A DNA stretch of 64,000 nt from Absidia repens (Eukaryota; Mucoromycota; Mucoromycetes; Mucorales; Cunninghamellaceae), in NCBI GenBank assembly GCA_002105175.1, contig MCGE01000049.1, positions 145,020 through 209,019 on the forward strand. Direction: 5' to 3'. Of the stretch, positions 17,381-20,190 are shown one piece after another; the first letter of the stretch is position 1, and the number at the start of each line of letters is the position of its first letter. A program made the position numbers and the translations under genes. The notes under the pieces were generated by a model that was not told the DNA's origin, searched no databases, and saw only the letters and a program-made list of their open reading frames with translations.

Positions 17381-19950
17381 ACTCTGAAGATAGACCTGCC
17401 AGCCCCAATAACAACAAGACTGTGGACGATATCATAACTGAAGCCCAGACAAATCCTTTAAATCATTCCGAATCTATGGAAGTGGATGATCATGTTACAA
17501 CAGTAGATCCAGATCAAATGGATATGGCCACTCCTGAAGAAATTAAGGCGGAGCTGGGTAGAACTGAATACAAGTTAAAAACAATTTACGGTGATTACTT
17601 GGATTACAAAAAGAAAGGTGACATGGCAAATATGGAGCGTATCAAGAAGCAATTAGCAGAATTGAAGCAAGACCGTGACATACAGCAATCTTTTTTAAAT
17701 ATGATGATAACACCAGAAAAGCAACAAGTACGGTCAAAGATATCATTTAAAGATATTCCTCTGTTCCAAGTAAAAAATCAATATGTGTATGATACAAGAC
17801 AGCGTATTTTTGACACAGTAAGTGATTTCTTAAGCACCTTCGAAAAGATATTGGCATCAGAACAAGTGAATCTAGACGAACAATGGTGCAGATGGCTCAA
17901 CTGTGCCATGAACCAAGAACATCAAGCATGGTTTGGTCAAAACCTTTTAAATCAACCATTGAAATGGAAAGAAGCTCGGCTTATCTTTGAACGACGCTTC
18001 GAATCCGTTGCATATAAACTGTTTATGGGTGTAAAAGCAGTGACAATGGAAATGGAATCTGGTGAATCCGTCCTTGCCTTTGGTGATAGGCTAGTAAAGG
18101 CAATGCACGAAGGTGAATTGGAAGATGGGCAAGCGTTAGCCTATCGTTTCCTTGGATGTTTACCTACGGAATTTGCAAATGCAGTGGGTGCTGCATGGGC
18201 TGGCCAAAGTCAAACCCTGGGCCAATCCTTGCCAACCAAAGTGCACCAATTAGTTGACATTGCAAGAACGATCACCTTACCTATGGATGTGAAGAAAAAA
18301 CAAGACAAGCGTCACTTTAAGTCCAGCAGCTGTTGGACTCAAAAAATAAAACATGATAATTTTAAATCATGCTATTATTGTAACAAATCTTGGGCACCTG
18401 CACACAGGTGCATACAACGTGACAAGGCAAAAGGAGTCAGTAAGGCTCGTGCTTTAAAGAGACAAAAAAAATCCGATGAGATTGACAACGAAGCACTTAA
18501 AGGTAAACATCATATCAAAATAACAAAAGCTATGGAATCAGTAAATTCACTCTCCCTTTATTTACCTATGACTGTAAAGGAAACTAGATTGCAGGCGCTA
18601 CTAGACACAGGCACTGATGTGTCTGTCATAAGTTTAGATATTTGTACAAAAAATAATTTTGTTATTAATAAAGAAAAAGCCTTAATTGAAGGTGTTGGAA
18701 AAAATAATTTTGTCAACCAAATCGGATACACTGATGTATTACCTATCTCTTTCAATCATAAAAAAATAAATCACAGTTTTAAAGTAATTGAAATGCATGA
18801 TGATTTATTATTAGGTATGGACTGGGTACAGAAATGTCAGATCACTATTAGTAATAGACCACATAACTGGGATGACAACGATGTGCGCATATTTGATGAT
18901 CATATAGATGATTCACTAGTGCCAAATGACACCCCAGCTGGAACGGAGTTTGAAAGAAAACTTTTTTTCTTCCCTCAAACCCCTTCTGGAACAAAATTCA
19001 TGCATAAATAAAAATACTTTTTGTACTATACCTGAATCAATAGTAAAACTACCAACGGAAAATGTCTCTCGGACATTTTTCAGACAATACCCTATACCTA
19101 TTGCTTTACAAGCTTTAATAGATGAAACCGTAAATAAATGGTTACAAGAGGGTACAATCACATTAGCCATAGTCAACACATCATGGAACAGTCCGTTGAC
19201 TCTGGCACCGAAAAAAGATGAATTCGGAAATACCACTACAAAACGAGCTTGTTTAGATCCACGGCATATCAATAAATTTCCCTTGCCTCTGATTAGAGAC
19301 ATTTTTCATCACTTAAGTGGATCAGCTGTTTTTAGCACCCTTGATCTACAGAGTGCTGTTCACCGTTTTCAAATTGCACCTGAAGATCAGCATAAGACAA
19401 CTTTTACACATAATGCTCTACAATATACAGTATGTTTCAAGGTTGTCCTTTTGGACTCAAACCACTTTCAGCTAAGTTTCAAAGGGTGATGAACATTATT
19501 TTTCGAGATGTACCTTTTGTACATGTATTTGTGGATGATATAATTGTCCATTCTAAAAATATCAGTGAGCATACACATCATGTATGCACAGCAATAAAAA
19601 AATTAACAGATGTCAATTTAATTTTAAATTCAAAGAAAAGTCACTTTGCACAGAAATGTCTCTATCTTTTGGGATTCTGCATCTCTAATATCGGAGTTTC
19701 TTTGGATAGGCGTAAACTCACCAATGTAATGGACTGGCCTATCCCTGTGACAGGTCGAGATATCCAAAGTTTTTTAGGAGTAGCTAATTATTTTAGGGAA
19801 CATATTCCTAAAATTGCTGAGTTGACCGCACCGTTAGATGCATTACGATCTTATCAAAAGTTACCTATCCCTAAAGAAAAATGGACAGATGAATGCATTG
19901 CTCATCGAATTGACCGATACTGTTACAACACGACCCTATACTGTATTTAA
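17377..19950 (+). pseudogene. Ty3/gypsy gag-protease-RT, element 2 (frameshifted, truncated)
   Basis: ATG 9 bp after the LTR opens a 544-residue frame. It holds an acidic N-terminus, a coiled-coil-like stretch (residues 55-110), a retrotransposon gag core (residues 150-300, WCRWLNCAMN), a zinc knuckle (CYYCNKSWAPAHRC near 330) and a retropepsin (LLDTGTDVSVIS near 410). A frame change near 18965 leads into the RT. A second change near 19424 coincides with an inserted TACAGTA absent from element 1. FVDD follows near 19530. Homology stops near 19905, so RNase H and the integrase N-terminus are missing. Gag is intact to the protease, so the copy is younger than element 1 at its 5' end. Confidence 0.93.
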
Positions 19951-20007
19951 GCTCGCCAATTACGACAATGCCAGGGACAACTCCAGCTACCGTACTGCGT
20001 CTGACTG

Positions 20008-20190
20008 AAAAAAATGCCACCAATGTCAAAAATATAATATTAGTAAAAAGGGTTATAATCCTTTGCGTCCAATCTATGCAAATACAGTATACCTGGTGAT
20101 CATTGGGCAGTGGATCTTGCAGGTTCATTCAAAACGTCATTTAATGGTAATCACTATATCTTAGTGATGGTAGATGTATGTACCCCCAGA
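20008..20190 (+). pseudogene. Integrase fragment of element 2
   Basis: KKCHQCQKYNISKKGYNPLR and the start of the integrase core match element 1 near 2340-2510. It is joined to the RT part through about 100 bp of unrelated sequence (19905-20007). A TACAGTA at 20086-20092 is a 5-bp insertion relative to element 1. It ends abruptly at GTATGTACCC. Confidence 0.85.

Follow-up and report, generated by a model that had tools for sequence, protein, structure and literature searches.

The window analysed here is a 64-kb stretch of DNA (145020–209019 of contig C44, in a genome of 47.4 Mb and 79 contigs), and it is crowded with the words TACAGTA and TACTGTA (TACWGTA), whose reading as excision footprints of Tc1-type transposons is supported by the sequence evidence. 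In the scheme that we consider very probable, several families left such footprints, elements like those of the L009 family made the ones in the window, and one clade of elements recycles scars into tandem arrays. We also favour, with less assurance, the view that the target preference of this clade matches its own scar, and that scars are recycled, each visit enlarging the array that draws the next one.

An exact count gave 78 TACWGTA words in the 64 kb (41 TACAGTA and 37 TACTGTA), where 80–90 had been estimated beforehand, and the strong surplus was upheld by the Markov controls proposed at the time. Order-2 simulation of the window yielded a mean of 10.1 words (sd 3.3) and a maximum of 20 in 100 runs; order-3 simulation, in which the model was trained on sequence containing the TACWGTA words themselves, yielded a mean of 15.2 and a maximum of 25 in 100 runs. 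TACWGTA is an outlier among all TA-N3-TA words of the window (78 against 10.2 expected), the next ratio being that of TAAACTA (2.7; 32 against 11.6 expected), and the composition-matched control words TAGWCTA and ATGWCAT occur 4 and 16 times, respectively. The TACWGTA words cluster along the window, with a variance-to-mean ratio of 2.7 over 2-kb bins. By eye, the open frames of the window appear rich in Ty3/gypsy-like copies. Genome-wide there are 14,011 TACWGTA words, and the window is four times denser in them than the genome mean (1.22/kb vs 0.30/kb). A 90-kb systematic sample contained 23 words against an order-2 expectation of 10.2, which extrapolates to about 5,400 words for the whole genome; the surplus is thus, very roughly, 8,600 words, a value resting on that small 90-kb sample. 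The reversed word ATGACAT occurs 10,593 times, and by that control the raw surplus is moderate, but the order-2 expectation is preferred genome-wide because the reversed word has other dinucleotides. A first sample of ten pieces, 50 kb in all, contained 5 words where about 5.1 were expected, and had pointed to no excess outside repeats, a reading overturned by the 90-kb sample.

Alignments between repeat copies show 13 of the 78 words, at 13 distinct window sites, to be present in one copy and absent from another. These sites and two groups of words are as follows, all individual sites being given on the plus strand:
12996–13002, plus strand: TACAGTA in the LTR-K repeat (alignments)
15395–15401, plus strand: TACAGTA (alignments)
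19426–19432, plus strand: TACAGTA in a Ty3/gypsy-like pol copy, a 5-bp insertion relative to the copy at about 1–1600, with the frame shifted (alignment and open reading frame break)
20083–20089, plus strand: TACAGTA, a 5-bp insertion at TA (alignments)
20536–20542, plus strand: TACAGTA, absent from 8 copy matches (alignment)
30510–30516, plus strand: TACAGTA (alignments)
36286–36292, plus strand: TACAGTA, absent from 9 copy matches (alignment)
42257–42263, plus strand: TACTGTA (alignments)
43485–43491, plus strand: TACTGTA (alignments)
45138–45144, plus strand: TACAGTA (alignment)
48877–48883, plus strand: TACAGTA (alignments)
58452–58458, plus strand: TACAGTA common to the L010 and L036 copies, an inherited scar (alignment)
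60022–60028, plus strand: TACTGTA (alignment)
22177–22197, plus strand: three TACWGTA units with 7-bp spacing on neighbouring TAs (word pattern only)
21472–25772, no strand assigned: cluster of TACWGTA words, 13 of them in the 22–24 kb bin alone (word count only)

To the eye, the last of these lies in sequence unlike an LTR, and it may mark a place where local hopping is concentrated.

The original prediction, that the words are exact 5-bp insertions at a TA between repeat copies, was confirmed at these 13 sites. In the gypsy copy pair, where insertions had been placed at 19427 and 20086, the words were found at 19426 and 20083, the former in an alignment of CAATA-----TATG opposite CAATATACAGTATG. 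Both words of LTR-A (20536 and 36286) proved to be 5-bp insertions, and those of LTR-C (42257 and 43485), LTR-F (45138) and LTR-J (60022) are present or absent depending on the copy. The three LTR-B/B' insertions lie at 15395, 30510 and 48877, the second having been given as 30531, and alignment support for the three words attributed to LTR-K (12956, 12968 and 12996) is limited to the one at 12996. In the window self-alignment, the word accounts for 12 of the 15 five-bp indel entries, these 12 reducing to 10 sites once alternative placements are merged; of the remaining three, two are microsatellite runs and the last is an AT-rich run. In a 301-kb alignment it overlaps 30 of 50 five-bp entries (27 with alternative placements merged), leaving 14 simple repeats and 6 others, and it overlaps indels of every other length up to 30 only 0–8 times each. 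The 5 bp are best read as a derived insertion and not an ancestral deletion, since at the best-covered sites many other copy matches lack the unit (8 at 20536, 9 at 36286 and 10 at position 419 of L091), the polarity being less sure at sites compared with only one to three copies.

Some loci show altered units. At position 1060 of L094, a 10-bp insertion is made up of a pair of units, the second of which carries a single-base change, and degenerate units (e.g. CACTG, TACGG and CTGCA) were seen beside intact ones both there and in the L049–L063 flanks, which suggests a decay of old scar units. Separately, 4-bp TGTA insertions at TA were noted at 8128 and 37728, possibly footprints of another TA-inserting family.

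Candidate makers of the scars exist in the genome. A DDE_3 profile search gave at least 41 matches, and 13 of the 30 loci examined have an inverted-repeat pair starting with CAGT (at least 15 of 24 matches) bounded by a TA duplication, the terminal features of Tc1/mariner elements. A DD34E spacing, with 34 residues from the second D to the E, was counted by eye in the L026, L009 and L021 frames. The end sequences define several families: L009 (CAGTCATTCCGG), L010/L012 (CAGTCGAGAAAG), L021/22/34 (CAGTRACTCTC) and a clade with ends CAGTRNSCT, which comprises L016, L020, L025–27, L031 and L035 (L016 and L035 assigned by end sequence only). Within this clade, the L026, L020 and L031 transposases are 61–82% identical to one another and 27–37% identical to those of L021 and L009. 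The 351-aa L026 transposase matches PF01498 (HTH_Tnp_Tc3_2, 59.9 bits) and PF13358 (DDE_3, 50.6 bits), both above the cut-off, and the named relatives of one transposase are from Parasitella, Mucor, Circinella and also Puccinia; the genome is accordingly regarded as that of a probable mucoromycotan fungus. The presence of CAGT-ended Tc1-type families with TA duplications supports the footprint reading. It also agrees with the original prediction as to the type of element, although the single, very active family then envisaged is not established, several being present. Another candidate maker, the pogo type (PF03184, DDE_1), had no match in this genome, but the control genomes gave none either. 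In the window itself, as anticipated, no intact Tc1/mariner member was found: no TACAGT...ACTGTA pair 40–3500 bp apart with at least 15 of 24 inverted-repeat matches is present in it, and the 41 DDE_3 matches all lie on other contigs.

The window contains further repeats and a frame of another kind. A 295-aa open frame at 47101–47988 (plus strand), in an unusually AT-rich stretch (23.5% GC), matches DDE_Tnp_IS1595 (PF12762, 57.2 bits), a domain like that of Merlin-type transposons. A repeat of about 150 bp at 46831–46978 has matches on many contigs among the 40 scored of 337 initial candidates for a 1199-bp query, and an Rfam search returned no match in the window, this repeat included. The segment 8243–8980 aligns to its own reverse complement (80% over 738 bp) as a long imperfect palindrome, and GGAT/GATA-type microsatellites are found at 13500–14100 and 33970–34010.

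Outside the window, scars are found in tandem. Units sharing a TA, (TACWG)nTA, were observed as TACWGTACWGTA 855 times genome-wide, whereas the reversed pattern occurs 26 times and the composition-matched TAGWCTAGWCTA 18 times. The 50 pairs listed from the first 2.9 Mb of contig C1 form 36 arrays, 25 with two units, 8 with three and 3 with four. Neighbouring units take the CAG or the CTG form at random: of these 50 distinct pairs, all on contig C1 and drawn from the genome-wide 855, 26 are of like and 24 of unlike units, and this independent choice would be the product of repair of a mismatched overhang joint at each separate excision. Tandem strings produced by re-use of a TA had been predicted for the window, which contains no pair of words sharing a TA and four pairs at 7 bp, such strings being abundant elsewhere; TACAGTATACAGTA strings number 18 in the genome, three of them in the window (control, 0). 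Of the two strings proposed, the one at 22177 has its units on neighbouring TAs with 7-bp spacing, and the words near 62776 (62775, 62820 and 62841) form no tandem.

The occupancy of scars by resident elements was observed in the clade defined above. The L031 family includes two longer copies, one of 1345 bp, whose only frame (253 aa) covers part of the first domain, and one of 1003 bp (L059). It also includes a MITE, of which there are 13 complete copies, each exactly 276 bp long and 94.5–100% identical; it is short and has its inverted repeat in common with L031, its longer relative. Among the 34 L031-family ends listed, CWG-TA is adjacent to 29, a complete TACWG unit to 21 and a pair of units to 9. 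The contact is weaker in related clade families (CWG at 5/11 ends, whole unit at 3/11), and the L020 family has, by eye, CWG at 4/6 ends and a whole unit at 3/6, so that, of 51 clade ends in total, 38 adjoin CWG-TA and 27 an entire scar unit. In the other CAGT families, CWG was found at 1/20 (L009), 0/23 (L012, by eye) and 0/8 (L021, by eye) ends, and, by eye, a whole unit at none of these 51 ends. For CWG contact (38/51 vs 1/51), Fisher's test gives p of about 2e-15, the ends of one element not being independent; the background in the 90-kb systematic sample is CWG at 326 and TACWG at 46 of 12,782 TA sides. Of the 58 matches to the clade-end pattern, 45 were retained, and 13 with two mismatches were dropped by eye as unclear family ends; a reversed end pattern gave 11 chance matches, and a few of those dropped may be decayed relatives. 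At least one intact unit abuts an end in 12 of the 14 complete copies (13 MITEs and L059), L060 and L063 being the ones among these 14 with no whole unit adjoining. The trait therefore tracks a single clade rather than the TA-inserting elements of this genome in general.

Scars also differ in their surroundings. Those of the window lean towards ATA-[scar]-TAT (−3 A 76, −2 T 73 and −1 A 78, each of 156), a modest signal in which −1 A at 78/156 compares with a background of 37% (p 0.001), and L009-family ends (n=20) look similar to them (−3 A 10, −2 T 10 and −1 A 11). From this resemblance of the flanks, the window footprints were probably made by a family preferring ATA-TA-TAT, such as the L009 family. 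A palindromic ATATATAT target has been described for ZB and likened to those of SB and Bari in PMC7913693. The window scar flanks (ATA-TA..TA-TAT) resemble this AT-rich palindrome, to a modest degree, whereas the scar-landing clade departs from it and favours G-TA-C or CWG-TA-CWG, with G before TA in 33/34 L031-family and 11/11 related-family ends. The outer flanks of arrays have G before TA in 24/42 cases vs 1338/6887 in the first 50-kb sample (p 7e-8), as counted in 21 arrays from 20 regions; these were the first in the C1 list, as far as 1779233, together with one at 2649910 chosen for its four units. This contrasts with the A that tends to precede TA at the window scars.

Sleeping Beauty, which has CAGT-type ends, offers a model for the process. 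Its consensus footprints are TACAGTA and TACTGTA (PMC4378557). At excision each end is nicked at a position 3 nt inside it, and NHEJ joins the resulting 3-nt overhangs; integration is described as nearly random across the genome (PMC7827188). By analogy, the footprints here would be excision residues of several Tc1-type cut-and-paste transposons with ends starting CAG, whose transposase would cut 3 nt inside each end, the joining of the two 3-nt overhangs leaving TA-CAG-TA or TA-CTG-TA. The likeness extends to the TA-C(A/T)G-TA footprint at what appear to be former sites (30 of 50 five-bp indel entries) and to the CAGT-type ends; the difference is that several thousand scars are visible in this genome as a residue and that tandem arrays are formed in addition. 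The L026/L020/L031-type clade and its 276-bp MITE would prefer G-TA-C, in practice CWG-TA-CWG. A single scar would offer CWG on one side of each TA, and a tandem pair on both sides, so that an element of the clade could land in a footprint, leave and add a 5-bp unit, giving (TACWG)nTA arrays that would still be good targets.

Three other origins for the words or the arrays are each very improbable. The arrays would be pentanucleotide microsatellites, grown by slippage and unrelated to transposons, if only their 5-bp period and the prevalence of two-unit arrays (25/36) were considered, but slippage would copy one form of the unit and does not make the mixed CAG/CTG pairs (24/50); the composition-matched pattern (18 vs 855) and the transposons residing in such arrays also speak against this scarcely credible origin. 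Hardly more plausible is a protein-binding or LTR-borne motif, spread with the repeats or kept by selection: the words are dense in a repeat-rich window and one scar is common to three copies, yet the exact 5-bp presence or absence occurs at different TAs of different copies, and other TA-N3-TA words have no matching surplus. The TACWG units could instead belong to the MITE as carried terminal repeats, given that 12 of 14 complete copies have one at one end at least. Unit number (0–2 left, 0–4 right) and the A/T state vary, however, in copies whose interiors are 94.5–100% identical, the trait is also found in families with other ends, and element-free arrays exist, which makes this most unlikely.

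Two further explanations deserve more weight, although we doubt either as a full account. The clade may merely have a target consensus close to CWG-TA-CWG, into which scars happen to fit without scar-specific recognition; the G before TA at nearly all its ends (33/34 and 11/11) favours this, as does the location of L026 and L027 at TACAGTG, a non-scar sequence. Against it, once CWG-TA is given, a TA at scar distance follows at 21/29 L031-family ends vs 5/74 in the first 50-kb sample, and the enrichment extends about 10 bases outward with a 5-bp period. Such a consensus, moreover, largely explains how landing on scars would work rather than replacing it: the two are compatible, and the former would be the means of the latter. 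An excised element might likewise, though less probably than not, re-enter in cis the scar it has just left, arrays being the outcome of repeated local hopping. Resident elements are flanked by units on both sides in variable number, and Sleeping Beauty is known to hop locally (PMC7827188), but copies abutting scars, which may be their own or foreign, occur in families whose inverted repeats differ (L016, L020, L025 and L031).

A precedent for landing on an old footprint is the Stowaway MITE in intron 4 of Triticeae beta-amylase genes, which entered the very TA where a previous element had inserted and left a footprint (PMC1925063). That case concerns one locus across species, whereas the present one concerns a clade in one genome, with 38/51 ends at CWG-TA and 855 tandem pairs. 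In the open-licence literature, at the level of titles and abstract openings, no report of insertion into scar arrays, or of genome-wide scar arrays as targets, was recognised. Among fungal Tc1-like elements, impala and mimp of Fusarium have CAGTG-type ends, the mimp MITEs being mobilised by a Tc1 relative; we know of no scar arrays for them.

Scars are usually too small to be recognised in bulk, and their surplus here allows past jumps to be counted roughly, the several thousand scars, set against at least 41 DDE_3 matches, being a gauge of past transposon traffic in this genome. If scars are preferred targets, they would be an unexpected memory for cut-and-paste elements, in which past departures decide future arrivals and arrays count the visits, and harm would be limited because the landing sites are pre-tested. 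Such a self-made target would be autocatalytic, steering insertions to places that already tolerated one, and would constitute a target-site principle for Tc1-type elements.
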